From Sanghuangporus weigelae (lineage: Eukaryota; Basidiomycota; Agaricomycetes; Hymenochaetales; Hymenochaetaceae), in contig CP137319.1 in NCBI GenBank assembly GCA_033182465.1, positions 992,001 through 1,056,000 of the forward strand: DNA of 64,000 bases, written 5' to 3'. The translations under genes and the position numbers were made by a program. Positions within the stretch are counted from its first letter, which is position 1. Each line of letters opens with the position of its first letter. This document shows positions 21,844 through 53,893 of the stretch, piece by piece. The notes under the pieces were generated by a model. That model made no database searches. It had not been told where the DNA came from and saw nothing but the letters and a program-made list of their open reading frames with translations.

Positions 21844-22253
21844 AAAGAGAAAGTTAAGAATAGTCACGTGGACTCGGCGCCCCTCCGGGCCGGTACATCC
21901 GTATTATTCAGAATTTCTTTCGATTTACCAAGCTCATTTTTTCGCCAAATTCTGACATTTGATCTGGCTGTGTTGAAGTTGAAGTTGAAGAGTTGGTTAT
22001 CGAGTTTGAGTAATGAGAAGAACAGGATTTGCTGACTTCAAGTGATAAGTATACGCGTGAACATTGGTCTTGAATGACCTGGATATGGCGTGCTTGTGAA
22101 CTTATTTCTTCAATTTTTATATTCTGTAATATAATGCGGCCAGCAACTCTGTTCGTAATACTAGACCGTTTCCTCCGCCCTCCTGGTTGCCGTAGGTATT
22201 TTGGTCGGGTTATTTTGTGCTACCCTGTCTGTGCTGATAAGTTACTTTAGTAG
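21844..22253. other. Upstream region of sulfite reductase copy A
   Basis: No gene. TAGTCACGTG at 21861-21870 matches a block at 35103-35112 (inverted) in the other arm. The last ~130 bp before the ATG are nearly identical to those before reductase copy B. Confidence 0.55.
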
Positions 22254-26984: not shown

Positions 26985-27445
26985 GAACCGTAGCACAAGT
27001 GATCGTATCTAGAAATCTCGTCGAAAATTTAATTTGCAGTTATTAATGTTACACAAATTGGATTACATTTCTTCAAATCATTCAAGTTCATGTCACGTGA
27101 CTGAACTAATATAGTGTAGATTTAGTGATAAGACAGTGCCGCACTTATCCTCACAACTTCTATCCCTGTAAACTCGCGACCGTTCACAGAACTTTCAGTG
27201 TTTTCCTTGGCTTTCTTTGGAGAGGACTGCGTCTATCCATCCGAATGTTATTAGCACTCGATTACGTCTCAGAACAGTCGATGTTGTCTATGTATTTCTT
27301 AGCGTCTCGGAAGGCCTAGGGCATTGCCCGCTATCTGTTCTGTTCATAATTAAACGAACGAGAAGCATGGCGAAAGGACTAGACCTCAACCTGATTCAAT
27401 CGAGGTAGAGGCTTATGTAAACCGAGGAAATGGGCCCTCTTAGAG
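26985..27445. other. Intergenic between reductase copy A and central protease copy
   Basis: The first ~75 bp match the 3' flank of reductase copy B. The rest (about 27070-27445) has no counterpart elsewhere in the window and no convincing gene. It marks the left edge of the central segment of the palindrome. Confidence 0.55.
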
Positions 27446-29430
27446 ACCTGATCTGGATGTCGCGGATGTGAGTACTATTTTTAGCACAACATTTGTTCTC
27501 TATTTTGCGCCTTTATTGTCAAGGTTATTTTCCAACGTTCGAGGCCCTTACCGGCTCGCCTTTCAATTATCATCTACACCGTTCGAGCCAGAATCTGTGT
27601 CTTTCTTGCATTTTGGCCATCTAGTTCTGCTTTGCAAGTCTTATATGCAACAATAGAGTGAAGCGCGGCCATGAAGTCGACCAAGAAAGCTTAAAAAGAC
27701 GAGCACCTGCATTGTACATTATACACCAATCTATCTACTCATCCATCATCTAACCCACTCTACTCACCACCCTACTAAACACTTCACTCACAACGATGTT
27801 CCCCGCATCGTCACTACTCACCACTGTGCTTCTTGCACTTACCGTCGCTGGATCTCCTCTGACCATACGCGACGATGGACCGAGCGGAACTCTTCCATTC
27901 TCGCTGAACCTGAATCTCAATGGCACGACACTGCCTGAGCTCGACCGAGCCCGCGCTGCGCTTTTCCTTGCTCGCGGGATGGAAATGGACTCGGTCGACC
28001 CGCAGGACGCCAATGCGACGCTCCCGGTCGATGTCAACAAGCGGGCATCCAATGTCGCGGTGACGAACACCGCCGTGACGTATACTGCGTCGGTGAACAT
28101 TGGTAGTCCTGGGACGAGCTATACGCTCTTGATTGACACTGGATCTTCGAACACATGGGTTGGTTTTTGAACTCTCGCGATGCAAGTGTGTACTGACTGG
28201 CAAGATCAGGTGGGCGCTCAAAAGGCGTACTCGAAGACAGGGTCTAGTAAGAGCACAGGACAGCAGTTCCATGTGAGCTATGGCTCCGGGAAGGTGTCTG
28301 GCGACGAGTGTAAGTCGCTGTCTTTACTTGCTACTCCGAGACAATGTACTCAGAGGTCTTTTTTGTTCCCATTCCAGACACCGACACGGTGACTCTCTCC
28401 TCGTCGCTCGTCATCGATGGTCAGTCGATTGGAGTTGCCACGACATCAAGTGGCCTCCAGAATGTTGACGGGATACTTGGTCTTGGACCTGTCGACCTGA
28501 CCATGGGCACCGTCACGGGCACATCCAAAGTGCCCACTGTCGTCGACAACCTGTACTCTCAAAAGAAAATTAACACGGAAGTCGTCGGCATTTCGTACAA
28601 CCCGTTCACCTCATCCTCTCAGACGAACGGTGAACTCACGTTCGGCGGTGTTGACTCGTCGAAGTACGCGGGATCGATCACCTACGCTCCGATCACAAAG
28701 CAGACACCGGCGAAGCACTACTGGGGACTTGAGCAGAGTATCACTTACGGCTCGTCTGGGTCGAATGTTTTATCATCGACGGCCGGAATCCTTGACACGG
28801 GAACGACGTTGGTCCTTCTTGCGACGGATGCATTCAATCGGTACAAATCGTTGACTGGAGCGACGTCCGATGGGACGACAGGACTGCTGATGCTCACGAG
28901 CGCACAGTTCCAGAACTTGCAGAGCCTGTACTTCCAAATCGGAGGCACGAAGTTCGAGTTGACTGCGAATGCGCAAATCTGGCCTCGGTCGCTGAATTCA
29001 TATATCGGTGGCTCTGGCGATAAAGTATACTTGATTGTTAGCGATGTATGTTTTCGTGATATCTCCTGCAGATATGCGAGCTGACTCGGTTCCTGTAGCT
29101 TGGATCGAATAGTGGATCAGGACTCGACTTCATCAGCGGGTACACGTTCCTCGAGCGGTTCTATTCTGTGTATGACACGACGAACAATCGTGTTGGTCTT
29201 GCGAACACTGGGAACACGAAGGCGACGACGAACTGATTAGAACCCAGACCCAAAAGCCCCTCGAGTCCCTGTATACCACTGCTTTGCGATATACCATTAG
29301 AGCATACTTGTTTTTTTCCCCCTTTCCTTTGATTACAAAATAATATACAAAGAATTTAAAGCCTGATCGAACGAGTAAACATGTTCAAAGGCTCTCGGAT
29401 TTGTCATTCGGGTAAGAGGTCGATCAGGCT
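27446..29430 (+). repeat. Central extra copy of the protease segment
   Basis: A protease gene with ~350 bp of shared upstream sequence and the downstream flank also seen beside copy 1. It starts at the conserved GAGACCTGATCTGGATGTCG and runs through a T-rich 3' end into sequence homologous to 18868-18990. It sits between the two reductase copies, so it is extra to the simple palindrome. Confidence 0.82.
27796..29236 (+). CDS. Secreted pepsin-like aspartic protease, copy 2
   Basis: A full 422-residue family A1 protease, from exons 27796-28158, 28210-28309, 28378-29045 and 29099-29236. The features of the family are all present: signal peptide, dibasic NKR site at 81-83, catalytic DTGSS and DTGTT motifs. 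Compared with copy 1, I count about seven residue changes, for example Ala-4, Met-62 in place of Lys, Val for Phe near residue 78, and Lys for Asn in GDKVY. No disabling change is visible. It stands between the 3' ends of the two reductase genes and reads toward copy B. Confidence 0.93.
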
Positions 29431-29517
29431 CTGAAGAAATGTAACGCGTAACATTATATAAAAACTGCAAATTTTCGACGATGTTTTTCTGGATACGATT
29501 CACTTGTGCTACGTTAC
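29237..29517. other. Junction between protease copy 2 and reductase copy B
   Basis: Contains the T-rich 3' end shared with copy 1, then a segment (about 29340-29430) homologous in inverted orientation to 18868-18960, then the 3' flank of reductase copy B. It is the key junction for reading the order of duplications. No gene. Confidence 0.7.
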
Positions 29518-32500
29518 CTACGAAGCTGTACTCACGTCGCGGTGTACGCCAAGTCCGCCCATACCATCGTACCATTCCTTTCCAGAAGCGACCGCAGAAA
29601 TGTACCCCGCACGAATCACAAAATCTCCAAAATGCTCGCCGTCCAGTCTCTGAAGGGCGTAGTGCTTTATCATTGGTCGGAGAATCGATAAGATTTCGGG
29701 TTCCGTCACCGATTCTGGAACAGAAACTCAGTTTCATAATAATCAATGAATGAATGTGCAAGCAGAGCTCACCCCGATAAATTTTGTTCAGTCGTTGTCC
29801 ATGGTATCCACCACCAAGTAACATCAGATAGCTACCTGGAGCTTTACCAACGAAAGCCACTTCTGCCACATATGGTCGCGCACAACCATTCGGACAGCCT
29901 GTCATCCGCATGACAATCGAGTCGTTCCGAAGACCGTATTCTTCACAGATCGCTTCGACCTTGCCGATAAGCACAGGAAGGTACTATTGATGCGCAGGTC
30001 AGTCCGGAATCCCTCTAGAAAGTATTCGAATCCTCCTTACCCTTTCTGATTCCGCCATCGCGAGACCGCATGTTGGGAACGCAACGCAAGCAGATGAGGA
30101 TAGTCTTAAACCAGAGAAATCGAGGTTATCAAGCTTATATTCAGCAAGCAACGCCTTTATTCGTGGTACTTCCTCTGTTGGAATATCCGCGAGCATCAGA
30201 TGCTGGTTTGTAGTCAGGCGGAATGTGCCCTTGTGCACTTTGGCGATCTCTCGTAGTCCTTTCTTGAAATCTCTCCCAGGCTCGTTCTGTACTCGACCAT
30301 TTTCAATGAACATCATATAGTTGTGTTTCCCGTTTTCGCCCGTTGACCACCCGAAGTCATCTATGTTGCGATCGAATGCATAAGGCCGAGCAGGTGCAAG
30401 CGACCATCCTAGAAGCTTCTCGACCTTGGCCTTGAAGACATCCAATCCCATACGATCAATTGTATATTTTAATCGAGCATTCTTACGGCTAAAGGCGTCG
30501 AGCATTAGCAAAGTCATTCCCGGTGTGAACACTGCGTGAACACTGCGACGTACTCTGCTCGATTGCCATTATCCCGCTGTACAATCACGATCTTTTCCGC
30601 TACTTCATGTCCCTGATCCGGCGTGCAGAAACCAAGAATACTACCCAGACGAGGATATGTCATTTTGTTTGCATGAGTGACACCCATGCCTCCTCCTGCA
30701 GTCACGTTGAATCCTTCAAGTCTTCCATCTTTTCCGACAATCGCGATGAAACCGAGGTCGTTAGCAAAGACGTCCACATCATTTGTAGGAGGTACCGCAA
30801 CAGCAATTTTGAACTATGCTAGAATTGATAAGGTATACCTAACCGAGAGGATGAAGCATACCTTTCGGGGAAGATAGTATTCGCCGTACAATGGCTCAAA
30901 GTCACGCACCGCATCACCAGCGACGAGTTTCTTGTCTAGCCAGATCTCATGGTAAGCTGTAGTACGAGGAAGGAGCCTGTCGCTCAATCCCTTCGCGAAC
31001 TCGTAAACCTCAGCGTGGAGTCGAGATTTTGTAGGGATCGCAGAGACGATGACGTTCCTGTTAATAATTATTTAAGAATACAGATAACATGAACCTGACA
31101 AACATCGCACATGCTGACATCGCCGCAGGCAGCTACGGTATCTAATAGTGCTCGATTGATTTCTCGAATAGTCTTCTTGAGGCGCATCTTGAGTACACCA
31201 TGGAACTGGAAGGTCTGCCGTGTCGTGATCTTGAAAGTTCCGTTTCCATGCTCGTCCGCAATCTGATCCATACTTAGCCACTGTTCAGGAGTGGAAACCC
31301 CTCCAGGCAGGCGCACACGAATCATAAAAGCGTACGCTGGCTCGACGCCCTGCGCTTGTCGCTCATCGCGGATGTCGCGGTCGTCCTGCTGGTAGACACC
31401 ATGGATTTTCGTCAACTGAGTGTCGCTTGGCGCAATTGCACCTGTCGTCGTGTCCTCCAGGCCTTCCGCGATTGTACCACGTAAGTAATTGGATGCCGCT
31501 TTCATGTGTTCATTTGTGATTGGATCTGGCTCCGCTTCTGTCACTTCGATGTTGTCAACACCGAGAGCTTTCCAGATGAGAGGTTCCCACAGTTTGTAAC
31601 CAGTCTCAGGACCATCGGCATCCTGGTCATCACCTAGACCAAGGTCTGCAAATCGTGTTGCGCCCAGAGCATCAAGACGAGTATCAAGATCTTTCCCGGG
31701 TCTATTGTGGTAGTGCGCGTCTTCTGTACGGGGCCAGTAGTGCGAATCACCCATGCCGAAGACCGAATACTTGACATTTTGAAGAGGTGTGTCGCCCCTC
31801 GCAACGGCCGAATTGACGCTCTTGAAGAAAGTGCGTCCATTCTGAGGGGGTTCACCCTGACCTGCAGTCGATGTCACGAACGCGACATACTCCTCCTTCG
31901 CGAGATCTTCAAGTGTGGTAGAGTCCATTGTCGCAACCGTAGTCGCAAGTCCCCGGGCCTTCCCACGATTTGCAAGTCGCTTGGCCTTCTTCTCTGCATT
32001 GCCGCCATCAGAAGCATATAGGATGAGCAGCGGGGCACCCGAGATATTGTTCAGCAGGTTCTCATAGGCCTGCTTTGCTCGCTTCTGACGGGCTGCCTTG
32101 ACATTCTCACCAAGGCTGCTCACAAGCTCCGCGGCAAGCGCTGGCTTTGCGCGCGAGAGCTGGCTAAGATGGTTTTGACGATCAAGGAACTCGCGTAGCT
32201 CCGTCTTGATTGCATCTGAATCAAGGGCAAAAGGTTCCTTCCCTTCATGCTCCTTCGAAGGATCCCAACGGTAAAGCGGCCAATACCCAGTGTCAACAGC
32301 TAGCTTCGTCTCTTTCAGCACCTCGAGTGCGGATGCTTGCTCATTCTGGTACGGCAGATACGCTAATATGACTGAAGGTCCTGGAAATTGATCCGCTTCT
32401 ACGAGAGCCTGTAACGCCTGTGTATATGACGAGTACACTGCAACACTGGCCACATAAACATCCGAATGATGCATCGTATACAGGCCAACATCCCTTTTGC

Positions 32501-34256
32501 GTCTAAGTGGATCACTTGAATTGCGATACGAATACGGTACGGTATCGATGATCAAAGTGTTCACGTTCAATCCAGATGCAATAAGGTGGTGCAGACCAGA
32601 TGCGCCGAGATCGTAGGACCATGCATCCGAACCAATAATCCAACGTGATTTTGAAACAAAGTGTGAACGCAGAGCCAGGATAGTCTGAACAGACTCGTGC
32701 TCTATCGAAATCCTGTCCAACTGAGAGACGACTTGTTCGCCAAGAGGTCCGCTCTTCGCGTGATCATTTCTCGCGAGCAGCCACTTACTAAGAAGCTCAT
32801 GCAAGTCAGCCGGAATAGTGGATGATGCAAGAAGAGCCTCAACAGCACTAATTAGCTGCTCTCTTTCTTCGAGTTGCTTACGAACTCGTCCCAGTGCAAA
32901 CTCTGGAGTCGTTGCGAGTGTACCATGAGTGGTTACATGCGTAGGTGAATTCGCAATTTCCAACCTCTGTTCAAAAAGGTGCTCAAGGATCTTTGTGTAA
33001 GATGCCTCGTGTTTGGGAACCTGTGGCACTGTAGGTCCCGAAACTGTAGCAGGCTCCGAGCGCTGTATAGGCTTTCCGAGCCTCACCCGCTCCGAAATAG
33101 GTTGCTGTAGGAGTTTGAGAACATCCTGATGCGTGATATGAGAGTCGTCACCAAGGAATCCAGACTGCACTTCTGGTCGATTTGACTCATCGAGACGCTG
33201 GATCGCAGTCATCACCTCGAGGTAAAGAGGCGTCCATTTAACGTTCCAGCTACTTAGCTGTTCCAATACGATAACCCTCTTCGCAGAGCGAGGAATATTC
33301 CGCAGTATCTTTGAGTGAAGGAGAGGAGCTAATAGCGACACCTCCACCCACGAGACGCCATCTACGTCGAGAGCTGGTGGTCGGCCCAAAATAAAAACCA
33401 CCGTATGAGCATCGGATACGGCACGCGTAATAAGAGATCGGACTGGCCGTCCAACCAAAGGAACGATAGAGACAGAGGCAATCTCGTAGGCTTCGTATAA
33501 AGAACGAAGCGTCTGGTCATCTGTATATTGTTCCACGGGCGCTGGGGAGGTGGGCGAGGCATACCCACTAATGGATAGACTTGAACCATTTGTGTGTCCG
33601 TTAACAGAACCGTTCGCATGTCCATTCGTGACACCTTTCGCAGCACCATTGGTCTGGCCGTCCGCATGACCATTGCCATGACCATTTTCCAAACCAAGTT
33701 TACCATTTTCGTTGAGTGGCGCTGGACGTCGGTTATCAGCTAGATAAGCACGGACTTGTTCCTCCGTCAATTCTCGCAGATCCACGTCTTCGACGTCTAC
33801 TTGGAATGCATGGAGAACAAGTCTCTTTTCTATCCTCGCGATCTTCGACGCTACCAAAGCATTGTCGTACGCTTGATGAAGAGTGGAGGAGTGTATGAAA
33901 TACGGTACCGCTGATCGGAGGAGGAGCGCGTCGGAAAGGTCACCGCCGACTGCAATGTGCAGCACAAACGGAGAGTGTGCTAGTTCAGATAGGTACGGCA
34001 GGAGCTGGGAAACCAGACGCGGACTTGAAGCGGACGTTAATGAGACCAAGCCAGAGTCAATGTAACGCTGAACATAGGATGCCGAATCTGCAGCATCGGG
34101 GACGGAGACGAGTTGCGGTCGCTGTACGGACTTTCTCGAGAGGATCTTGCATTCGTCCGAGAAGAGAGATGGACCAGGTGTTGACTGACGGTCGACGACG
34201 ACGTCAGAGCAGATGAAAGCAACTTGAGCAACGGCCGTTGCCGCCGACGGACCCAT
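29518..34256 (-). CDS. MET5: Sulfite reductase [NADPH] beta subunit (Met5-type), copy B
   Basis: A second full-length gene of 1485 residues with the same six exons as copy A, each of identical length: 34256-31111, 31057-30862, 30813-30554, 30488-30041, 29983-29773 and 29714-29518. All splice sites read GT...AG, and the Fe4S4-siroheme cysteines (CVAFPTC and CPNGC) are intact. Over the first ~1049 residues I count about 40 differences from copy A by eye (roughly 96% identity). They are mostly conservative and spread out, with a small cluster in the flavodoxin region. Intron 3 holds a short internal tandem duplication (GCAGTGTTCAC) that removes its in-frame stop, but the splice sites remain. Both copies therefore look functional. 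Confidence 0.95.
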
Positions 34257-35983
34257 CTACTAAAGTAACTTATCAGTACAGACAGGGTAGCACAAAATAA
34301 CCCGACCAAAATACCTACGGCAACCAGGAGGGCGGAGGAAACGGTCTAGTATTACGAACAGAGTTGCTGGCCTGCATTATATTACAGAATATAAAAATAG
34401 AATTCGCGGGGAACCTCAAATATGCCGGTGGTAACTAGTTGTCAACAGGTCTAGGAGGTCGTGTGGAAATGTTTTCAATAGTGTGGAAACTGTGGAAGCT
34501 CCGGTGTAATAAGTTACCTAAATAAAGCAATTTGTTTTATTTGTAAGCGACTTTCAGGTATAATTAGCTCAGCATCAAGCTGAGGCTGCTTATTCAAAAG
34601 AAAAAATGACAGATTCGCACTCTCTCCTCAGACTGGAGTCCTAATCTATGTTAGTGCCTTCAACTGTCTTCTTACCTTTACTTTCTTTTTTCCCTTCACA
34701 ATCACATCATCTGGATTTTGTTTCTTCAAGTTGTCTGGACAATTCTTGCATATTACAAGAGCTGTATATACTGAGTCGAAGATGGCCTCATAGATACGAG
34801 CTTCCACAGTTTCCACATGCCCATTTCCGGTCATCTGAGTTGCCAATGTTAACACCCCGCGGGAAACCATCAACTTCTGAAATTGAGAACTCAGACTCTA
34901 TATGAAGCCGGCGAATCCCGTTTTTCTAGTTACTCAAACTCGATAACCATTAACCCTTACTCTTCATCTTCATCTTCTGTACAGCTAGATAAAAATGTCA
35001 GAATGGTCGGTCGAAAAGTCAGCTTGGTAATTAGAATGATAAAAGAAATTCCGAATATTAAATTTGTACCGGTGCCGCGGCCTATCCTGGCCAATCAATT
35101 CACGTGACTATTCAGATTCTTGTCTCGTAAGTTAAGTTTTCTTCACTCACTAATTTCACGACACTACGACTACTTCTTACTACCTTCGACTAGTTCTGAC
35201 CGACATAGGGACTTCCGAATGTTAGACGGCTCCTTCTTTACTACCTATGCCTCCTTCAGGTTGGTAAAGGCCGAAGGCCTATGAAGTCACCGGGCCGACA
35301 ATTGATTATTCTTCAAGCCTTGTAATGGAAAACCCCGCCGAGGCAAATCTGCCTCTGGGAGATTACTCTAGACCTGGTCTTCTAGCTCGTATGCTTCTCT
35401 CCTGACAATCAAAGATTCAAGTAGCGGAAACGCGACGTGTCTCTCTCGATGTTATGTTGTCTTACTGCACGGCACCACTTGGAACTCTGAACGCGTCGTC
35501 GTTTGTATGGCAGCACAAAAGTCCAGACATGAAGCAGAGCCCCTTACGACCTAGACTTTTGTTTTGATTCAGCAGAGTCAGTTTGTGGAGATCTAGGCCT
35601 TACTTACACAAATGTACCTTTTCAGAGACCTGATCTGGATGTCGCGGATGTGAGTACTATTTATAGCACAACATTTGTTCTCTATTTTGAGCCTATTTAG
35701 CTTTATTGTCAAGGTTATTTTCCAGCGTTCGAGGCCCTTACCGGCTCGCCTTTCAATTATCATCTACGCTGTTCGAGCCAGAATCTGTGTCTTTCTTGCA
35801 TTTTGGCCATCTAGTTCTGCTGCAAGTCTTACATGCAACAATAGATTGAAGCGCGGCCATGAACTCGACCAAGAAAGCTTAAAAAGACGAGCACCTGCAT
35901 TGTACATTATACACCAATCTATCTACTCATCCATCATCTAACCCACTCTACTCACCACCCTACTAAACACTTCACTCACAACG
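34257..35983. other. Intergenic between reductase copy B and protease copy 3
   Basis: Counterpart of 20501-22253. Shared blocks lie next to both genes (34257-34380 and about 35190-35983). The middle, about 34380-35100, is largely unlike the other arm. The fold-back element of the other arm is missing here. No gene seen; short open frames near 34646-35107 lack motifs. Confidence 0.55.
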
Positions 35984-37424
35984 ATGTTTCCCGCATCGTC
36001 ACTACTCACCACTGTGCTTCTTGCACTTACCGTCGCTGGATCTCCTCTGACCATACGCGATGATGGACCGAGCGGAACTCTTCCATTCTCACTGAACCTG
36101 AATCTCAATGGCACGACACTGCCTGAGCTCGACCGAGCCCGCGCTGCGCTTTTCCTTGCGCGCGGGAAGGAAATGGACTCGGTCGACCCGCAAGACGCCA
36201 ATGTGACGCTCTCGGCTGATGTCAACAAGCGGGCATCCAATGTCGCTGTGACGAACACCGCTGTGACGTATACTGCGTCGGTGAACATTGGTAGTCCTGG
36301 GACGAGCTATACGCTCTTGATTGACACTGGATCTTCGAACACATGGGTTAGTTTTTGAGCTCTCGCGATGCGAGCGTGTACTGACTGGCAAGATCAGGTG
36401 GGCGCTCAAAAGGCGTACTCGAAGACAGGGTCTAGTAAGAGCACTGGACAGCAGTTCCATGTGAGCTATGGCTCCGGGAAGGTGTCTGGCGACGAGTGTG
36501 AGTCGCTGTCTTTACTTGCTACTCCGAGACAATGTACTCAGAGGTCTTTTTTGTTCCCATTCCAGATACCGACACGGTGACTCTCTCCTCGTCGCTCGTC
36601 ATCGATGGTCAGTCGATTGGAGTTGCCACGACATCAAGTGGCCTCCAGAATGTTGACGGGATACTTGGTCTTGGACCTGTCGACCTGACCACGGGCACCG
36701 TTACGGGTACATCCAAAGTACCCACTGTCGTCGACAACCTGTACTCTCAAAAGAAAATTAACACGGAAGTCGTCGGCATTTCGTATAACCCGTTCACCTC
36801 ATCCTCTCAGACGAATGGTGAACTCACGTTCGGCGGTGTTGACTCATCGAAGTACACGGGATCGATCACCTACGCTCCGATCACGAAGCAGACACCGGCG
36901 AAGCACTACTGGGGACTTGAGCAGAGTATCACTTACGGCTCGTCTGGGTCGAATGTTTTATCATCGACGGCCGGAATCCTTGACACGGGAACGACACTGG
37001 TCCTTCTTGCGACGGATGCATTCAATCGGTACAAGTCGTTGACTGGAGCGACGTCCGATGGGACGACAGGACTGCTGATGCTCACGAGCGCACAGTTCCA
37101 GAACTTGCAGAGCCTGTACTTCCAAATCGGAGGCACGAAATTCGAGTTGACTGCGAATGCGCAAATCTGGCCTCGGTCGCTGAATTCATATATCGGTGGC
37201 TCTGGCGATAAAGTATACTTGATTGTTAGCGATGTATGTTTTCGTGATATCTCCTGCAGATATGCGAGCTGATTCGTTTCCTGTAGCTTGGATCGAATAG
37301 TGGATCAGGACTGGACTTCATCAGCGGTTACACGTTCCTCGAGCGGTTCTATTCTGTGTATGACACAACGAATAATCGTGTTGGTCTTGCGAACACTGGG
37401 AACACGAAGGCGACGACGAACTGA
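35984..37424 (+). CDS. Secreted pepsin-like aspartic protease, copy 3
   Basis: A 422-residue family A1 protease, from exons 35984-36346, 36398-36497, 36566-37233 and 37287-37424. It is intact, with signal peptide, propeptide, DTGSS and DTGTT active-site motifs. Distinguishing residues include NVTLSADV before the NKR site, Thr in LTTGT, and Ser in NTWVSF at the unspliced intron edge. About six residues differ from copy 2. The upstream 350 bp are almost identical to those of the other copies, so expression is probably similar. Confidence 0.93.
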
Positions 37425-37777
37425 TTAGAACCCAGACCCAAAAGCCCCTCGAGTCCCTGTATACCACTGGATCCTGATATACCCACAATTTATACCTGTA
37501 GAGCATTTCGGATGTCTTTTATCGATAAAAATAAAAAATAAACAAAAATAAACCGTTCTATCAGTGAAGTGATACGAACTGAGGATTTCTGATTTATAGT
37601 CATCGAAGAGTAATCTTCAGTTACAGCGACAAACTATTGGTACATGCTTCTCGATTCGGTGACTTAATATGATTTTTCGCGAAAAAAGTACGGAGAAGTG
37701 GGTAAACAGCACAAGACAAAACCGATCGTGTATACAATGAATCATCAAATTGGGATTCCACGCCATAAAAACGACCT
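37425..37777. other. Convergent intergenic region, right border of the duplication
   Basis: The first ~45 bp belong to the duplicated unit. The rest is A/T-rich and unique, probably 3' ends of both flanking genes. Nothing else seen. Confidence 0.6.
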
Positions 37778-39465
37778 TTACGTGCAGACGAAACTTAGAT
37801 CGTTGCCTATGTTGTCAGGGAAGTTCCAGAACGAGAGCGCGATTACCACATAAACCGCTAGAGTAATTCGAATTTAGCATATTCATCCCAAGAATGACGT
37901 ATAAATAAATATGCGGACCTACGAGGATAACGCCACTCATCCAGTGTGCCCGTCCATCTTCGACAGAGAACTTCACGAGGATTACCGCAAAGAACAAACA
38001 AAGCGTTTGCAAAGAATCGAAGACGAGAGAGAGTGGCTTTCCGGTGCCCCATGCTGCAAGGACGAGAATAGGGACGACGAACAAGGCTATTTGAATGCAG
38101 CTTCCGACCGCTACCTGCAGAGCAAGGTCGAACTTTCCCTTACTTGCAACCACAACAGCAGTCGTGTGTTCCGCTGCGTTCGAAATGATCGGAATTATAA
38201 TGAGAGTGAGGAACTCTCTCGAGAAAGGTGCAGCCTCTGCGACTTCGTCAAGCGCATCAACGAGAATCTCTGCAGTGAGATATGCGAGACCAGTGACAGC
38301 TGACAGTAAAGCCAGTGCAGACGGGATGTTCGTGCGTGGATACTCAACACGTTGACTTGGCGCTGAAGAAGTTGTAGGAACGGGAAGTGTCGAACCCATG
38401 GTAGATACCGAGCTCGTAGAGGACCGGCGCGACGTAGGTTGTTGAACGGTATCGACGAACAAATGAGAATGGGAATAGAACTGGAAGAAGAGGTATGCAA
38501 TATATCTAAAACGCGAAACACTCAGCGAACAAGAATTAAGAGTCTCGAAAGTTGGACACTTACATTAAAAGCAGAATGATCGCTGTACCACGACTCATGG
38601 TAAGGAGGAGAGGGGTCTCCTCGGCTGCCTGGATCTTCTCACTGAGGAACTCGTGGAATGCGGCCGGGACCAACAGTGCAATGACGGAAAGTGTCATGAG
38701 TGATGTATTCAGCTGTGCTACAGTCGGTTGGAATTCTTGTTGGTGGAAGCGGAAGCCACCTGCGAAGAAGGCCATGCCAAGAACCAAAAGCAGATTACTA
38801 AGAAGTCCGCCAAGAAGCGAGCTCTGGACGAGATTCAAGTCGCAACGGGACAAGGCGATACCCGCAACTATAAGCTCTATGAGATTCCCGAGAGTCGCGT
38901 TTAACAACCCGCCTACACATTGACTCGTGTGCAGGGCAATTTGTTCTGTCCCCAGACCGAGCAATGCCGCGAGCGGAATAATGCCGAGAGCAGCGAACAC
39001 GAAAACAACTGTCGGTGCCTGGTGCGAATAATGCAATGCCCAGGATACTGGCACACAGAAAAGGAATACATTGAGCGGCGAGTAGCGAATAAGTGCAACG
39101 AGGGATGCACGGTAAGACGGAGCAGGGCCCAACATGTGTTGAGGTGTGAACAAGGTTCGCAGACGTTCACTCCTGCTTAACGCACTCGTACGAGCTCTCG
39201 TTAGGTTAGGCAACGTAGCCTCTGGCTTTTCTTCATCGGATATTGCTGTTTTCCTTCCACGCACGAGGGACATAATCAAGCCACCTCCTCCGGCACGGAC
39301 GTCATCTCTCTGGGTCTCAGAGACGTGGCTCTGACTTATTTCAGTCGGCCTAGGGGGAGAATGCGGACTAGGGGGCTCATCGTCGTCAGCAGCGACGGGA
39401 ACGGAAGATGCTGGCTGGGGCACGACTGAAGCATCATGCTCAATTGACACGGATGGGTCTCCCAT
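37778..39465 (-). CDS. Ca2+/H+ antiporter (CAX family, Vcx1-like)
   Basis: Vacuolar exchanger that loads Ca2+ into the vacuole using the proton gradient. Three exons join in frame: 39465-38564, 38505-37919 and 37857-37778, giving 522 residues. A hydrophilic N-terminal tail of about 135 residues (probably regulatory) precedes about eleven membrane segments. Both alpha-repeat motifs are visible: GGLLNATLGNLIELIVAGIA and IIPIISNAAEHTTAVVVASK, with the conserved Asn-Glu and Asn-Ala-Ala-Glu-His residues. An acidic/Ser-rich loop joins the two halves. The third exon was placed by choosing a GTCCGC donor after 37919. It restores the typical C-terminal membrane segment VYVVIALSFWNFP, and the same kind of donor occurs in other genes of the window. 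Confidence 0.92.
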
Positions 39466-39768
39466 TCAAGGTGGGGCGTATGTGGGAAGGAGCAGCTCCG
39501 TCAAGCGTCTCCTTTATAGGCGCGGCTTCTTGGCGCCTTGGCCGCTACACAGCCACAATTCTAGATCGTCACATGGTCGTAACGGTGGCTTATCACGACC
39601 GTTTGAAGAAAGAACACAAACTTGAACTCCGGTGAAAGAGATGTCACGAGGAAAACATTCAAATAAACACAAGACGTGTTTCTTTCACACTCAGTTGAAA
39701 GTCCGCTTGGAAGGTAAGTGACGCGACAAAGTCACGGGATTCGAATGGTGAAAGCTTAAGGAATCTTA
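39466..39768. other. Intergenic, promoter side of the CAX gene
   Basis: No gene recognised. It ends at the 8-bp direct repeat that borders the next mobile element. Confidence 0.55.
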
Positions 39769-39776
39769 TCTATTAC
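39769..39776 (+). repeat. Candidate target-site duplication, left (TCTATTAC)
   Basis: Identical to 43076-43083. It directly abuts the left TIR; the right copy is offset by ten bases from the symmetric TIR end. Confidence 0.55.
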
Positions 39777-40390
39777 AGGCATTTACCGGTCCTTTGAACA
39801 CCCAATACAGATCCACTCGTACACAACACCACAAACATTTAAAAAAAAATCTAATTACATATCTGAGTAGTCTGCTATGGAGGCTATATGCTGAAATTTT
39901 TTTGAGCTGCAAAATGTGCAGGAAAAATCAAATTGTGCGTGTGAAAAAAGTAGGGTAAATGTCACGAAATTAACACCTTTGAACACCTTGTGACATAAGT
40001 GTCATGCTAGTGCATGTATTCGCGCGCCCGCCCGATTACATAATAATGTTGATAAGTCTGCCACACCGGGCAAAGAGTTATTATAATCTAAAAGAAATTT
40101 ATAATTAGCTGACAAACAAGATTTGAAATTAAATACTGCATTTAATTACGTGAAATATTTCATGTTTGTTCCTTGATAGAACTTGAAATAACAATAAGGA
40201 TTTAGATTCGGATTAGGAAAACAAAGAGATTTCAAATAATGTCGTGTGAGGAACACATAAAGAAACTTGAAGTCTTAGAAAAGCAAAAATGGTTAAGTTT
40301 AGTTATTGCCGAAATTTTATGTCTTTGATAGGAAGAAATTTAAAATTCTTTTTATTATTCTGACAAAGAAAAAATAAGTTTGACTCTCAG

Positions 40391-40552
40391 TGGGCGCTCA
40401 GCGGACGATCGGCGGGCGATCGGCGGGCGATCCGAGGGCGATCCGAGGGCGATCCGAGGGCGCTCAGCGGGCGCTCAGAGGATGATCAGCGGGCACTCAG
40501 AGGGCACTCAGCGGGCGATCAGAGGGTGCTCAGAGGGCGCTTAGCGGGCAAT
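40391..40552 (+). repeat. Decamer tandem array in left TIR
   Basis: About sixteen tandem, imperfect 10-base units of the types GGGCGATCGG, GGGCGATCCG and GGGCGCTCAG. It lies at the inner edge of the left arm. Confidence 0.85.
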
Positions 40553-40562
40553 CCTGATATTT

Positions 40563-42254
40563 CACCATACATACAATGCTTAACCAGTCCATGCATCCTC
40601 TATATAGCTCTTCAATAAAATAAGCATGCAGATGCATTTCTTCAGTATGGATGGATCTTTGAAAGGCACTTAATGAACGGAGAGTAAGTCTACCATTCAG
40701 TAGCGCCTGATCTAGTCTCATTTATCTATCAACGCAGTTATGTCCTCTTCAACAGACAGCCATAATTGCACGCACAAAGGTCTATGATGTGTCACAGGAT
40801 CCGACTAATGCCCTATTCAAGTGCGTGCTCGACCTATATGTTCATGTCTGAACTCTGACCAATTCTATGCAACCGTTCGTCTCAATCTTTCCATTACTCC
40901 TCCGTACAATGCCGACTTCGATGGTGATGAAATGAACATGCAGTACGTCGTATCACTGCCGCCTTGTGCTGCCGTTTCTCATCTTCGTGTAGTGTCCCCC
41001 AGAGCGAGGAGACTCGGGCCGAGCTCAGTCAAATAGAATGGGTCCCCAGGCAGATCATTTCGCCCCAAGCGAACAAGCCCGTTATTGGTATCGTGCAGGA
41101 TACTCTTTGCGGTATCCGCAAGTTCACCTTGCGAGGTTGTTCCCTTGATTGGCAACAAGTACAGAATATACTGCTTTGGGTACCGAATTGGGACGGCACG
41201 ATCCCAACACCAACCAATTTGAAACCCAATTTTTTATGGACGGGCAAGCAAATTCTTAGCATGACAATCCCGCGTGGGATCAACATTTTCCGGTCGCCCG
41301 AGAACAAGTCATGGAGTCCTGTCTTCGATGATGGCATACTGATCGAGAATGGCGAGATCATCTTTGGTATTGTTGAGAAAGAAGACCGTTGGCGCATCCC
41401 AGGGCGGCCTGATGCACGTTGTTTTCCGAGAGAAAGGTCCTGAAGCTACACGATCGCTCTTTACGGGTCTGCAGAATATCGTCAATTATTGGCTGTTCCA
41501 CAATGGATTCAGTATCGGTATCGGCGATACGGTTGCAGACAGAAAAACGATGGCGTACATCACGGAGCAGATTAAGATGCGGAAACAGAATGTTGCCAAA
41601 GTCATAGAAGATGCGGCCATGGATCGCCTGAAAGCAGCTCCGGGTATGACTATCCACGAATCCTTCGAGAGTCAAGTCGAACGGGAGCTCAATTTGGCTC
41701 GTGATCCCTCTGGTCAATATGCTCAGGAGAACCACAAAGAGGACAATAATGCCAAGCAGATGGTAGTCGCTGGTTCCCAGGGTTCCTTCATCAACATCTC
41801 CCAGATGTCTGTTTGCGTCGGTCAGCAATCCGTGGAAGGGAAGTGTATCTCGTTCGGCTTCAGACATCGAACACTACCGCACTTCATGAAGGATGATTTC
41901 AGTCCAGAGGCGCCGGGTTTCATTGAGAATTCCTACTTGCGTGGATTAACACCGCAAGAGTTCTTCTTTCACGCCATGGCGGGTCGCGAGGGATTAATTG
42001 ACACGGCTGTCAAGACGGCGGAGATTGGCTACATCCAACGGCGGCTTGTCAAGACTCTAGAAGACCATGGTACATTATGACGGGACTGTTCGGAACTCGT
42101 TGGGTAATCTCATACAGTTCGTCTATGGCAAAGGTGGCATGGATGAGACTTTCATTGAGAGACAGAGCATTAAAACGTTCGGTATCAATGATCGCGAATT
42201 CGAGCATCGCTACCGTGTCGATGTTACAGATCCGAAGGTGGCTTCCTTCCTATT
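40563..42254 (+). pseudogene. RPB1: Captured fragment of RNA polymerase II largest subunit gene (RPB1)
   Basis: Encodes the central catalytic part of RPB1 as exon-like blocks: about 40629-40683 (DAFLQYGWIFERHLMNG), 40738-40820 (YVLFNRQP, then MMCHRIRLMPYS), about 40879-40942 ([20 protein letters not shown], the Mg-binding NADFDGD motif) and 40993-42254 ([20 protein letters not shown] through REFEHRYRVDVTDP). GT...AG introns lie between blocks, so genomic DNA was captured. It covers only about 450 of some 1750 residues, with neither end of the gene. It is broken: TAA at 40763-40765 in NRQP-stop-LH, a one-base insertion near 41385 (GAGAAAGAAGACC), and a second frameshift near 42070. Several conserved residues are also changed. 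It cannot make a polymerase subunit. Confidence 0.92.
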
Positions 42255-42257
42255 GCC

Positions 42258-42365
42258 CGCCGATCGCCCTCTGAGTGCCCGCTGAGCATCCTCTGAGCGC
42301 CCGCTGAGCGCCCTCGGATCGCCCTCGGATCGCCCGCCGATCGCCCGCCGATCGCCCGCTGAGAG
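42258..42365 (-). repeat. Decamer tandem array in right TIR
   Basis: Inverted counterpart of 40391-40552, with units CGATCGCCCG, CGGATCGCCC and CTGAGCGCCC in about eleven copies. The shorter array suggests unit loss or gain since the arms were identical. Confidence 0.85.
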
Positions 42366-43083
42366 TCAAACTTATTTTTTCTTTGTCAGAATAATAAAAA
42401 GAATTTTAAATTTCTTCCTATCAAAGACATAAAATTTCGGCAATAACTAAACTTAACCATTTTTGCTTTTCTAAGACTTCAAGTTTCTTTATGTGTTCCT
42501 CACACGACATTATTTGAAATCTCTTTGTTTTCCTAATCCGAATCTAAATCCTTATTGTTATTTCAAGTTCTATCAAGGAACAAACATGAAATATTTCACG
42601 TAATTAAATGCAGTATTTAATTTCGAATCTTGTTTGTCAGCTAATTATAAATTTCTTTTAGATTATAATAACTCTTTGCCCGGTGTGTGCCTGTCACGCT
42701 TTTCAAGTCACCTTTATTGTATGCCTTATATTAATTCATTGGATAGCTCTTTCGCCACACAAACTAGGCTGCATGTACTTACAGTAGTGGAGTACTAATA
42801 TATCTGCTTTTGAGTCATGCTCAAAGCATGAATGAATAGCAAAATGCATCTGATTCATTGTTTCTCATTGAGTTTCACTGAAATTCAGCAGTAAATAATT
42901 TCTCTGTATTTAACGGGTCATAGTAATTTGCTGAAATTTCGCAGCATGACTCATGTGTATTCTGTCCACCTATGATAAAAATTTCAAGTTGCAAATTGGA
43001 GGTTTGAGTGAGTAAATGTAGGGTGTTCAAAGGAAGGGTACTGTTTAAAGGACCGGTAAATGCCTGTACTAATAGTCTATTAC

Positions 43084-43778
43084 TTACTTACCATCGTCAA
43101 CGTAAGACAAGTGGAGTACATGTGCTTGCTCAATAACTTTCTGTAGAGAAGTACGCAAACAGGCCTGAAGTACGCCGTACAATGCTGCTCGTCCAGTTCA
43201 CCGTCGTCCCTACACCTACGAGATACTTAGGAAGTTCTCGCGGACTACCTCATTTAGCGATGCAGAGCGTGCCTGAAAATGTCGGCATGGAAGAACAGCT
43301 ACATACGTGGAGGAAGAAACCGAGATCTAAGCTACAGCTAGTTAGTACAACTACCTTGTAGTTTCCCGGACTGAGGTCCCAAAGGAAAGGCCCTCTGCTT
43401 TCTTAACCAATATAAGTTATAACACTTTAGTATTAGTCTTGTGACTAACTTCACGTGCATCCATGGCCAGTCACGTTGGGTCACGTCTTGTAAGCTTGTT
43501 GTACTTACTGTACTTCAAACAGAGAGAGAATAGGTAACTATGGGTCTTATGAAATGGCAAGAATGTCGAATTTGATTGAATCCTACTGTATTACATCGAT
43601 ATCTCAGAGCGAATCACTCATCCAGGAATCAGTCTCTTGGTCTTTTCTGATGAAGCTTTGCTCTCGGATGACCGAGGTGTCCTCTGGTGAAGGCGTTTGC
43701 AAAGGCAAAGGATACCGACGTCTCGACAGGATGAACGAATGCACATGACGACCCGAATCTGCGGGTATCCGACGAATA
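43084..43778. other. Intergenic, 3' side of kinase-like gene
   Basis: No gene recognised. A short plus-strand open frame at 43554-43748 has no family features. Confidence 0.5.
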
Positions 43779-45791
43779 TCAACGGTACAGTCGAAGAAGA
43801 CCTAGCTTGTCAGCCGCGCTAATCGATTCTTCGCACGCATCCGTACCACCGCAATGGTGATCTGTGTGCGCATTCGAGAAGTCTGCCAAGCGCACGACGC
43901 CCTGTTCTGATCGCAGAATATTGCTCGGACGAAAGTCATTATGCTTGACGCCTGCTCGATGAATCTTTTGAAGAATCGCAAAAGTTTTAGACCTTTACAA
44001 TGCGCAATTTAGTCAGTTAGCAGAACGCATGACTGGTGAAATATCCAGACCTCTCCTCTTGTGTCAAGCTGTCGAAGGTCTCCAATGCGGCACCACAATA
44101 ACTGATCAAAATTGCCGAGTATTCGAAGCCATTGTTTTCTCCGCTGAAATGACCATAATATCTGGGTATGTCAATGTCATATAGGCTACGGAGCATGCGA
44201 TACGCAGCAGCCTCGGTAACAAGATATTCCTCGCAGTCTTCGTTGAAGCGCTTGACCGCGATGGGACCATTAGCTATCTCATCGTCGATAAAAACCTCCC
44301 CTCGAAAGACACGTGCAAACCCTCCGGCACCAATGAGATACGAAATGTCCACGTCTAAGATGTGCGGCTCTGTGGGAGAGCCGGGAACTTCATCTACGCG
44401 CGCCATGGAGATATCAGCGAGTACGGCACCGCCAGCAGCTGTTGTATGCAATACAGCCTATACAAATCTAAATCAAGATGCTCTTTGTTTCCGCTTGAAT
44501 GTGACATGCCTTCGATGAGGTCTCTAAATACTTTGCTTCGCTTTCTCTCATTTTGCGGGTCCTGTCGCGAGTACGTGCAAGATGCTTACGCGGCGGAGCA
44601 GCTGGAACCCGGACTTTGAATTGATCAAGATAGCCAAGCTCTTCTTTGGCTGTCAGAAGCATATAGCAAATGAGAGAATAAATGGATTCATTAGGAGATT
44701 CCCGAGGGATTTCCTTCGAGATAATTACGATTGGGTCTGCATCCCGATGATCAATCCTCACGATCCGCATCTTGAGAGCGCAATTGATGATTCCCCATCA
44801 ATACTTTTCCGCGATCATATACAAAGCTAACTAGGAATGGATGTCAGATGAAGGCGAAGATGCTGCAATAGATAGGTACCTTGAGAAGGATAGCCCGGAA
44901 TCCTGTTTCGGGTTGTTCAAGTTCAAGCCACCCACACATTCGAATAACCTGACCGTCGTTGCAGTGGTTATCATATACAGCGGGGATCTTATCCTCGCAT
45001 GCAATTCCAGCAGAAGCACCATCAAGACGAGACGCATGAACAATTGAGTCCATCCTTACCCCGGCGTCAGCGGTGGTGTGTTCTCGGTCAAGTTGGAATG
45101 ATGCTCCGACTGCCTCGATGGCTTTGATACATGCCCGGAAGACGGGTGTCGTTGCATCTGTAACTGACGATTCATTGCTTAACACGTGGTTAGCGAAGGA
45201 TGCTTCATATGATGCTACAATCGTTTCGGCATCTTGAAGGGCATCCGGATCGACGGTAGGAGGCCCTTGTAGTAGTACTCGAGAGAACAAATCTGCGACC
45301 ATATGTTGAACCATCGTCTGAGATTCGATCAAGTAGAGTGGACGAGTCAGATAAGGAGGCAGAAGTGCAGTGTCATATTGCCTTGTGTGAAGGGATCGAG
45401 AGATGTCAGCGCGCATCGGGGTCATCGTCCTCCTTTGAAGGAAAACACTAAGAGTCGTTACTAGAAAGAGAACTCAACAAACAAAGATATAGGAGATAAA
45501 GGACCAAAATTCATTTACAAGCATCAACGTCAATTTGGCTTGCAAGATTAACTATCGTCACCCTCCCAGTTGGTCGATCCTAAGAAATACGAACTGCATC
45601 GCGCGATATGCTAAAAGTTCGTTCCAGTGTACCACTCATTTGTAATCTTCAAGAACTACTCACCTCGTATGCGCAAGCATTTCAAATGTGCATACACTCC
45701 TGCGTAGCCAGTCATCCCGTTGAGTGAGAGTGGAGTCAATCTCAACATAGTAAGTTTCTTTGCCCAGTTGGACATAAACGTATAGTGGCAT
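43779..45791 (-). CDS. Protein-kinase-like gene, possibly inactivated
   Basis: Exon 1 (45791-45664) and exon 2 (45432-44880) join in frame, starting MPLYVYVQLGKETYYVEIDS. A 49-bp intron then leads to LALYMIAEKY, a TGA stop at 44800-44798, and WGIINCALKMRIVRIDHRDA in the same frame. Either the gene carries a nonsense mutation (Trp to stop would fit) or a longer intron ending at 44771 skips it. Later blocks give a kinase fold: LIGAGGFARVFRGEV (Gly loop), PIAVKRF (Lys), and a last exon ending at 43779 with KHNDFRPSNIL and LADFSNAH. The catalytic Asp and Asn are present, but HRD is HND and DFG is DFS. Boundaries of exons 3-5 are uncertain. It resembles agaricomycete orphan kinase-like proteins; the substrate is unknown. 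Confidence 0.6.
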
Positions 45792-49255: not shown

Positions 49256-52200
49256 ATGGCCTTTCCTGTTCCGGGTCACCTTCCACGCAAACAAGTGCCT
49301 ACGGATGTGTCTTCAAATATCCTTTCAAGGATATCTGATGCGACTAATAAGTCTCTCAACGCTGAAGTAGCTGCTGAATGGGTTGCTGAATTGCAACTTA
49401 ACATTCAACAAACCAAAGTTCGTTTGTCTACTCTTTGACGTATTGCTTAGCTGACGGTTTTTACAGGACCGTATTTACGATCGTATTCATGAGAAACTCC
49501 CTGACTTCGAACGTCAGCTTGAGTCGTCCAGGTTGGTTCAGACACGATTGAAGGACCTCTCGTTGAATGTGGACCAGCTCACGGAAACTCTTGAGAATCC
49601 AGAAGTATGTGTATTAAAGCTCCACTGTGCTGAGTTTCTGAAACGTATCAAAGACAGGCATTCTTCCTACCTTACTCAAATCCTTAGAGGCTCATAAAAA
49701 GCTGCAGCAGCGCGCGTCAGACGCTCGGGTGACATATGAGGCCGTCTCCTATCTGAGCGAATGCCGCTCTCGCTTTGAGAGTTTAACTACGCTTGTTCAC
49801 GATGGTAGCCTCGCGGAGGGTGTGCGACAACGCAATGAACTGTCTTCGTTTTTGGACCGTGCTCCAGAAGCTGTGGCGAATGCAGACATCATGATGGACA
49901 TGAAGGTTCGCCTCTCAGCTCTAGTAGACTGCTTTGACTCTAACTTTAGTGACAGAATCAACTACGGACTCTTAGAGACTGGATAGACGAACAGCTAAGC
50001 GACACATACTATAGGAGTATCCGAATATCGCCAACTGAACTTCGAATCTCTCCGTCGGTCCAAGGTGCGGATACTGCTTGCGCGAAGAGGTCTTTGTTCT
50101 TTACAATTTATTTACAGTTCGAAAATCCCAGGCAATTATTTCGCTTCCAGATATCCTCGAGTCGCTTTCTACTCAGTCGTTGGACTCGTATCTCACATCT
50201 TTACGTCGCGACATTGTCGCGCATTTCATCGTCTTCCCTTCGCAACAGGCGGCTTCTTCAACTGTTTCAAGGAACACCGATGTCGATGGCACTCCACACA
50301 TCTGCTTTTCCCTCTTCCCTCTTCCACCTTCTCCAGACTTTAAAAAGGCAATACCGGCTTACTTCAAGTCATTGTTTGACTTCTTGCGCGAACACCTCAT
50401 CTCTGCACTTCCACCCTTAATAAGGGAGTCTTTCCCGAGGACATTATACAAGCCCACTGCAAATGCTCTTCTCAGTAATGTCCTGGTTTCACTTCTCCCC
50501 AGTTCTCTATCAGGGCTTCCTCCGTTCCTTGAACTGGTCCAGGATGCCGTCAAATTTGAGCAGGAATACTTCTTCAGAGAGGATTCAGCTTTTGACGGTT
50601 TGCAAGGAGAAGGGGAAATTCGGACTTGGGGAAGAGGAGTCGCAGGTCATTATGGACGGAAACGACGGATTGACCTGCTGGCAGAGACTAGAAAGGTCAT
50701 TCTTACTAGTACGAATGGCGAGACCGTCCGTGTGGAAGTCTCTGAGTTGTCACTGAGTAATGACAATTTACCCGCACCCGGGCCGGAAGTTATACCAGTT
50801 CAAGGCGGAATCGAAGGCGGGGAGGAGACTGGCTGGGATTTCGATGATGACGCGCCTGCTGCTGGAGTCGATGTGCCAGAGATTGATAAACCTGCTGAAG
50901 AAATGACCAAGCAGACAGAAAGGGACATGAGCGGCCGGGATTTTGACGACGCGGATGCTGGTGCATCTGATCAAACGAAGGTCGAAGATGACGGTCTGGA
51001 CGACTCGGATGCATGGGGCTGGGGTGATGATGAGGAGAGCAGTACACCTGCCACGAGCGAGAATGGAAACATCGGGAAGTCTGGTCCTCCCACGAATGGG
51101 CGTCAGGTCGATGAACCGCGGCAAGAAGTGCGCGCAGAAGACTCTGCATGGGACACCGCATGGGATGAACCAGAGCCAGTCTCATCATCACCTCCATCTC
51201 CGGTGCGGCCGATATCTTCAGGGAAAGCGCCAAAGGTGGCAAAAGGCTTGGAGAAACTTTCTGCGAAAGGCAAGACAAAGAGACTCGCTTCTCCAGCACT
51301 TTCTTCCAACCCACCCTCGTCGACATTCTCAACGACTTCTAGATTTCCCTCAAGTATCTCGTCAAGTACCCAGCCTCTCAGTTCACCTAGTCCTCAATCT
51401 TCCTCTTCCACCACCTTCCAAAGTCCGCATCCGCAGTCTTCACATCCCTCAATTACGCCTCTCAAACTTCCAGCTTTATCTCTACCTCAAAAACCCAAAC
51501 AACCAGAAACCTACTTAATCTCAAGCCGAATACAAGATCTCATTCGACTTATCTCCAACATCCTCTCCGAGGGCAAGGCCTTATCAAAATCATCAGTCTT
51601 CTCCGACTTCCCGCTAGCACCTCCCGATTCAACCAGCAACGCCAGCACGCTCGTCTTACAAACGGCACCGGCTGCGCTAGATCTATACCGCGCAGTCTAC
51701 CCTGTTGTATTTGCGACGGACCTCTCGTGGCCGGCACGAGCTTTACGCTTCTCGAACGACTGCTTGTACATGCACGAAGAGGTCACCAAACTTGTTGAGC
51801 TAGAGTTTCAGAACGGCGCGGTTCTAGCGGGCTCGGCTGCCTCCGTACATGAACAGATGAATGAGGCGCTGGAGGGATTGCACGCGCTCGGCGCGTGGTG
51901 GTTTGATGAAGGCATCGTCAGTATTAATATTTCTTCGGTTATCTTTATCTCTATCTCAGGATTTTTGATTTAATATCTACTCTACTCCTTCAGGAACGCG
52001 AATGCGAACGCGTCTCACAGATCCTGTCGCGTGCGGAAGGTTTCGTAGAGCTCAGCCAGCAAGACCGATTCGACGAATGCGAGGCTGTGATGAGCGAGGT
52101 TCTCCGGAGCGCGCGAACCGGCACGGGAGAGTGGAAGGTGCGTGTTTATGTTTTCATCTCCGTTAAGAAGAACGAGCAACCAATCTAACTTTCTTATTAA

Positions 52201-52904: not shown

Positions 52905-53893
52905 GTCAACTGGCAGGGGTTGTCTACTGGCTGTTCGGTTTCTCTTTCACTACATGTCTTCATGAACACATTTTCCGATCTGGCTATCTTACTTATGTCT
53001 GCGTCTGCATACCTGTTCATATTATCTTCCCTTCGCAATTTTCATTGTCTTTCATTGTATTTACTATCGCAATAAACGCCTCAGGTCAGAATCCAGCTGT
53101 AATCAGAGTATCCCGTGCTCAAAACTATGACGACCAGGGCCCTGAGAAAGGTGGGCCCATCTCGATCGAGACCGAAGAAAACGAGGTGAAACAGAGGTTC
53201 CGAATCTGAATTACTTTTACTACCATCCCGGGTGCTAGTGATTATTTGACGGATATAGGAACGTCCTTTTTTTTTGTACTGGTTGGTTGGTATTCGTAGG
53301 AGGTTTACGGCGAGATTCGCGAAGGTTTGTGGTATCGGGTTGGTTCGTTCCCGAGGGACGGGATGCACGGATCAGCACGCTGAGGTTTAAGTTGTTGTTA
53401 AGTTAGCCTATGCTAAGTAAATACAACGGGATAGAGTACTTGTAGCTGCGCCTGTTTGTGAGCTGAGGTATCGTGAGGTATGGAAGAAGAATGCAACGCA
53501 TGTCTAACACGCGAAACTGACATGACGACTGGAACTGAAATTGTCGTATCAAATTTCACATCACATCAACGCGCAAACCGGGTGGGGAGGTGCAAGGGCC
53601 CAAGGCTTGCCTCGCAATTGCAATGTTGTCTGGAATAATACATAATCGGGTGTGTCTCCGCTATAAGAAGCTGGCTATACCCTCTCCTCCCCTACTTACT
53701 TTGCGGGTTATCCCCCATTCAGAACACAAGGCCTTACTTCACTTACTCCGTTTTTCCTTTCCTTACTCCTTCCATCCATCTCAAAGTCTCGCGTAGAGTT
53801 CCCTTCCACTCGCGCATATAGACATCATCGAATTACAACACGCATCACACGAAATAGTTTATTAGACTCTCAACCAGTCATATCATAACGATC
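52905..53893. other. Intergenic, nothing recognised
   Basis: About 1 kb after Zw10 and before the TRAPPC12-like gene. A possible short 3' exon (from 53085) could extend Zw10 by splicing at 52901, but it meets a stop quickly. The 53600-53890 part is pyrimidine-rich and probably promoter and 5' UTR. Confidence 0.5.

Follow-up and report, generated by a model that had tools for sequence, protein, structure and literature searches.

A candidate EnSpm/CACTA-like foldback element with an intron-bearing RPB1 fragment, probably nested within a second DNA transposon, in Sanghuangporus weigelae

Which mobile element took up a piece of RPB1, the gene for the largest subunit of RNA polymerase II, in the basidiomycete Sanghuangporus weigelae? 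The piece lies about 40 kb into the stretch of DNA analysed here (64,000 nucleotides of contig CP137319.1, positions 992,001 to 1,056,000; hereafter the window). The original prediction for this locus, made from the letters of the sequence, described a single Pack-type transposon at 39777-43075, with long terminal inverted repeats (TIRs), that had captured the fragment together with its introns. Our analysis indicates that the locus probably consists of one non-autonomous DNA transposon nested inside another, the inner being an EnSpm/CACTA-like foldback that carries RPB1 and the outer a short-TIR element flanked by TA. The notion of a TIR element with captured genes is thus kept in part, since there is a non-autonomous element with genomic RPB1 at this site, but on this evidence the capture is attributed to the inner foldback and not to the 39777-43075 unit.

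The inner foldback (40062-42687, plus strand, 2626 bp) is built from two long inverted arms. The left arm (40062-40552, plus strand) has an A+T-rich part reaching to ~40389 and an array of 15 units of 11 bp at 40386-40552, while the right arm (42252-42687, minus strand) has 10 such units at ~42252-42363 and an A+T-rich part running to 42687. Outside the arrays the arms, 436-491 bp in length, are identical at 327 of 328 positions; blastn between them gave 95.9% identity over 434 bp, a figure lowered by the arrays. Copy number in the arrays is ~15 on the left and 9-10 on the right (14.9 and 9.0 according to Tandem Repeats Finder), so that the element has the long inverted arms and the tandem arrays of varying copy number, 15 versus 10, that define a foldback. 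The inner edges had been described as tandem decamers, but the repeat unit is 11 bp, not 10. Between these arms lies an internal RPB1 fragment, at ~40607-42248, as had been proposed. The homology between the arms begins sharply with CACACCGGGCAA at 40062 and ends with TTGCCCGGTGTG at 42687, and the trinucleotide TGC abuts both ends (40059-40061 and 42688-42690) as a candidate 3-bp target-site duplication. Helitrons are not known to make target duplications or to have TIRs. They do carry genes in the basidiomycete Pleurotus (PMC4289320), and a similar Helitron-mediated capture, with the inverted repeats a coincidence, would have that precedent on its side; given the matched inverted arms, the sharp boundaries and the short flanking duplications, we find it very improbable. 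Termini of the form CAC..GTG with duplications of 3 bp are, among fungal families, consistent with EnSpm (PMC12730594), and the inner termini, CACACC..GGTGTG (40062/42687), together with the TGC repeats, have both features. The inner unit is best read as a non-autonomous Pack-CACTA-like foldback element.

Further evidence for its boundaries comes from a second, gene-free foldback in the same window (21346-21843). This hairpin has 61-bp tandem repeats in its arms, which are 99% complementary over 212 nt; a further outer pair of 27 bp is perfect, and the 26-nt loop is too short to hold a gene. Its tip is CACAGCGGGCAA, its ends are CACAGC..GCTGTG at 21346/21843, and it is flanked by AAA on both sides, which gives it a 3-bp duplication like the TGC pair of the inner element. 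The 12-bp tip pattern common to both elements, CACASCGGGCAA, matches the window at four places, all of them exact, and these are the four ends of the two foldbacks. When one mismatch was allowed, the mean in shuffled sequences was 0.38 matches, and none of 100 shuffles reached four (largest 2). Since the second foldback shares this tip, it provides independent support for where the inner element begins and ends. The hairpin belongs to one copy of the duplicated segment described below, with its adjoining stretches; the paralogous segment near 35.1 kb has no hairpin at the corresponding site, in a surrounding alignment that is gappy.

The outer element (39776-43066) comes to 662 bp once the inner element and one copy of TGC are removed. 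Its left TIR, CAGGCATTTACCGGTCCTTTGAACACCC (39776-39803, plus strand), matches the right TIR (43047-43066, minus strand) over its first 20 bp with 0 mismatches. With up to 3 mismatches allowed, CAGGCATTTACCGGTCCTTT has two matches in the window, 39776-39795 (+) and 43047-43066 (-), both perfect, where shuffled sequences have a mean of 0.00. A candidate 2-bp target-site duplication, TA, abuts the element on the left (39774-39775) and on the right (43067-43068); TA occurs at both of two random positions with a frequency of 0.002. TA duplications are known for Tc1/mariner elements. The fungal PHISTA and ESTA lineages also make them (PMC12730594), and the outer element, in which no transposase was found, may belong to any of these TA lineages. 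Two repeats were also noted within the outer element: a subterminal motif, CCTTTGAACACC, recurs within the outer flanks, and the right end has an 18-bp near-tandem repeat (43024-43058), none being reported in the left end.

The alternative with the most in its favor is the one originally proposed, a single TIR element at 39777-43075 with long composite TIRs, an 8-bp duplication and RPB1 captured between. The 8-bp match, TCTATTAC, is indeed present on both sides (39769-39776 and 43076-43083) and is rare by chance, with P ~0.0005 for this 8-mer within 22 bp and 0.004 for flanks of 25 bp to have any 8-mer in common; the outer TIRs are also perfect over 20 bp. However, the right copy starts at 43076 while the right TIR ends at 43066, which leaves nine bases between them, so that the match does not abut the element on that side. 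TA directly adjoins the outer element at its two ends, as TGC does the inner one. The proposed TIR at 39777-40552 is not one repeat, either. The outer flanks, 286 bp on the left and 376 bp on the right, have no inverted homology beyond the terminal TIR and a 12-bp motif (the best local score between 39803-40061 and 42688-43040, 24, was equalled or exceeded by 5 of 200 shuffles, with a maximum of 34), and the long arms are internal. It follows that this supposed TIR joins two different things. In addition, the inner tip is found again in an independent hairpin. A single element is, in our judgment, unlikely.

RPB1 homology (plus strand) runs collinearly from ~40607 to 42248, ~1.64 kb in one copy and one orientation between the arms, and corresponds to S. 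pombe Rpb1 residues ~420-910; the 54 bases at 40553-40606 were assigned to neither arm nor RPB1. The longest frame, of 245 amino acids, matches S. pombe Rpb1 with E = 5.5e-104. When the frames were bridged with X at the frameshifts, residues 471-910 aligned without a large gap (E = 5.6e-197), and upstream exons carry the alignment back to ~residue 420. Three introns on the plus strand interrupt the fragment, as had been claimed. Introns A (40684-40737, 54 bp) and C (40943-40992, 50 bp) have GT..AG borders, and splicing of A gives a GAT codon where S. pombe Rpb1 has Asp; intron B (40821-40872, 52 bp) was placed from the exon alignment, its acceptor dinucleotide not being AG. Joining of the exons across all three yields an Rpb1-like protein, with codon-consistent placement. 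Since three introns are retained, the donor was genomic DNA. A retrocopy from a processed transcript, the origin concluded for the intronless histone H3 copies in hAT elements of Pseudocercospora fijiensis (PMC6710886), would have this published fungal precedent, but it is hardly credible for a piece in which introns of 50-54 bp are still present. Provided that these three gaps are introns of the native gene, such an origin is ruled out.

The RPB1 piece thus is a genomic-DNA capture, a host gene fragment between TIRs as in Pack-TYPE elements, and it is now a pseudogene, unable to encode a polymerase subunit. There are in-frame stops near 40617 and 40764 and frameshifts near 41378, 42066 and 42236, that is, five certain disabling lesions, to which one apparently lost intron acceptor can be added. 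Compared with yeast Rpb1, the captured copy has one extra residue and one missing residue, and it differs at 50 of the 302 aligned positions where S. pombe and S. cerevisiae agree. Its identity is 65% to S. pombe and 66% to S. cerevisiae, with the two yeasts sharing 69% with one another across that stretch, values from which no capture date follows. There is little sign of C-to-T decay of the kind left by repeat-induced point mutation (RIP): TpA/ApT is 0.53 in the RPB1 piece and 0.55-0.57 in three of the window's host genes, and the second RIP index is slightly raised (1.31 vs 1.18-1.23). A search for relatives by RPB1 protein gave 1 viral locus, with 42% identity, and in prokaryote genomes 31 stretches matched a pattern, 16 of which encode relatives, all archaeal according to their record titles (34-57% identity).

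For 39700-43100, 44 open reading frames (ORFs) of at least 40 amino acids were listed. The 42 that overlap the element were scanned against Pfam; the other two lie outside it. As had been claimed, no transposase family was found in these 42 ORFs of at least 40 amino acids, and a lack of transposase is the condition expected of a Pack-TYPE element. The Pfam cut-offs were reached only by RPB1 families, in 4 ORFs. Six matches fell below the cut-offs (E 0.0065 to 0.12), namely PF13665 (E 0.068), PF06431, PF23950, PF09005, PF17173 and PF03583, and none of these is a transposase. The scanned ORFs of the arms and outer flanks gave no match to an RPB1 family, noncoding RPB1 remains being of a kind that would escape such a scan. 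For the outer flanks, this result is as expected if the capture is internal.

A comparison of arms and cargo raises the question of whether the two are of the same age. If both had aged together, ~2.5 changes would be expected in the 1640 bp of cargo, given the single difference between the arms in 328 bp. The probability of at least five lesions alongside one arm difference is 0.00017 if 1/5 of changes are disabling, 0.0091 if 1/2 are, and 0.11 if all are. The mismatch in age is suggestive only. Near-identical arms around a lesioned RPB1 suggest either gene conversion of the arms or an RPB1 piece that had decayed before it was enclosed. The greater apparent decay of RPB1 would also suit another explanation, in which two separate foldback insertions or miniature inverted-repeat transposable elements (MITEs) landed in inverted orientation around a pre-existing RPB1 pseudogene segment, with no capture at all. 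However, TGC brackets the pair of arms as a unit, the inward ends of both arms stop at the same sequence (GGGCAAT / ATTGCCC), and the ORF scan of arms and outer flanks, within the limit given above, found no RPB1 family. Such a double insertion is, to our mind, distinctly improbable.

Several points weigh against the nested arrangement that we favor, or against parts of it. The EnSpm-like class is assigned from the ends and the length of the duplication only, since the ORFs gave no transposase of that kind; the inner tips read CACAC/CACAG, not CACTA, and the 3-bp duplication taken alone is weak, random site pairs sharing 3 bp at a frequency of 0.017. Apart from the 12-bp tip, the likeness between the two foldbacks does not exceed that of shuffled sequences (score 22, with 74 of 200 shuffles as high), so that they share a tip and not a body. 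No other copy of the inner arms or of the outer TIR occurs within the 64-kb window, so that this particular element can be called no more than putatively mobile. The TCTATTAC match, rarer than chance would have it, is left unexplained by nesting. Finally, the mismatch in age depends strongly on what is assumed, since with five arm differences and 1/5 of changes disabling the probability of at least five lesions becomes 0.11. Five differences are about the upper Poisson limit for one observed.

How could the nested structure have arisen? The inner foldback would have acquired, between its arms, a ~1.64-kb stretch of genomic RPB1 DNA made up of exons together with three introns. Capture probably went by template switching, or else by gap repair, within the tandem arrays; tandem insertion followed by re-mobilisation, as proposed for Pack-TYPE elements (PMC8903248), might be an alternative. 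An EnSpm-type transposase, encoded at another site and acting in trans, may then have moved the loaded element into the outer one. One could go further and envisage a fungal EnSpm-like foldback family with the tip CACASCGGGCAA, in which tandem-repeat arms capture intron-bearing gene fragments, gene conversion keeps the arms identical and the cargo decays, making it the foldback-plan counterpart of Pack-CACTA. We put this forward tentatively, as an idea somewhat less likely to be right than wrong. The suggestion that the locus could generate small RNAs against the host polymerase finds no support in the layout: RPB1 is the loop between the arms, not a stem. Because it is single and in one orientation there, a read-through transcript would be expected to fold into a hairpin with double-stranded arms and a single-stranded RPB1 loop.

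Capture of host-gene fragments by plant CACTA elements has been described, and like these Pack-CACTA elements the inner foldback is non-autonomous, holds a host gene fragment between its ends, has no transposase that we could find and shows CACTA-like ends with a 3-bp duplication (PMC8903248). It differs in its tip, CACASCGGGCAA here versus the CACTACAA used for Arabidopsis, in arms that are hundreds of bp long and nearly identical, and in its fungal host (PMC8903248). Pack-TYPE elements come as several related elements with TIRs and duplications in common; in the window, the one possible relative is the second foldback, which has the 12-bp tip but no likeness beyond it. Fungal EnSpm families have the same CAC..GTG termini and 3-bp duplications, and an extra gene is carried by basidiomycete transposons too: several basidiomycete TIR lineages, EnSpm included, carry TET/JBP dioxygenase genes (PMC12730594). 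However, the fungal EnSpm families encode transposase and some of them a TET/JBP dioxygenase, neither of which was seen here (PMC12730594).

Fungal DNA transposons with a housekeeping gene or a fragment of one are known from hAT elements, the nearest of the published fungal cases that were listed; they carry histone H3 in Pyrenophora (PMC3538342) and in Pseudocercospora (PMC6710886). These differ from the S. weigelae element in being hAT and not EnSpm-like, in the intronless state of the Pseudocercospora copies and in belonging to multicopy families (PMC3538342, PMC6710886). In overall plan, with composite inverted repeats, unequal tandem arrays and a gene inside, the element resembles the foldbacks Tm1 (PMC3169594) and Drosophila FB4, which carries Ssk (PMC8277862). 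Repetitive arms have been proposed as template-switching sites for animal Pack-TIRs and FB4 (PMC8277862). Tm1, unlike the inner element with its 3-bp duplication and CAC..GTG ends, has 9-bp duplications and an affinity to Mutator, and a foldback-like structure does not denote one family (PMC3169594).

Gene capture by TIR elements had been called little described in basidiomycetes; in plants it is well known, and for fungi there are only a few descriptions. Among the matches listed from the open-licence literature there was no non-autonomous TIR element of a basidiomycete with part of a host gene inside, nor any fungal case in which an EnSpm-like element or a foldback had captured such a fragment; no paper on RPB1 with gene capture was found in that literature. 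The ascomycete hAT, Pleurotus Helitron and basidiomycete TET/JBP cases are published precedents (PMC3538342, PMC6710886, PMC4289320, PMC12730594). Cut-and-paste elements that capture gene fragments are documented in plants and animals as a source of new gene structures. If true, an intron-bearing RPB1 in an EnSpm-like foldback would show that capture of genomic DNA extends to the TIR elements of fungi. The gene-free second hairpin provides a 12-bp search key (CACASCGGGCAA plus a 3-bp duplication) that can be tested across fungal assemblies. RPB1 is a phylogenetic marker gene in fungi, and captured copies could contaminate marker data.

Some of the searches made on the element contributed little. 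The inner-tip 19-mer had 0 matches in a viral sequence collection, and the outer-TIR 16-mer occurred there in 5 contigs, which we put down to chance given the short query and the size of the collection. The single-strand fold of the left arm (z -1.95, matched by 1 of 20 shuffles) and a bacterial promoter scan were both uninformative.

The outer element lies 310 bp upstream of its left neighbor, a minus-strand Na/Ca-exchanger-type gene with its start codon inferred at 39463-39465; on the right, the next long ORF listed is 44844-45473. A tRNA search of the window returned none, and an Rfam search gave no match at the gathering threshold. Two ORFs, 50039-51973 (644 amino acids) and 53858-55294 (478 amino acids), had no Pfam match at E 0.001. 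The window is gene-rich, with Pfam matches that include condensin subunit 2, an actin-like gene, BRAP2, aspartyl proteases, a sulfite-reductase-like gene in two copies, an Na/Ca exchanger, KAR9 and RED. KAR9, like the introns of 50-54 bp in the RPB1 piece, fits a fungal source. A large inverted segmental duplication occupies 18865-37469, and an aspartyl protease gene is present in three copies. The duplicated segments 22109-27030 and 34402-29469 are 96% identical, and the two copies of the sulfite-reductase-like gene (22254-25439 and 31068-34256) stand in opposite orientation with 96% identity over 4.9 kb. A squalene-hopene cyclase-family ORF lies at 7286-8167.

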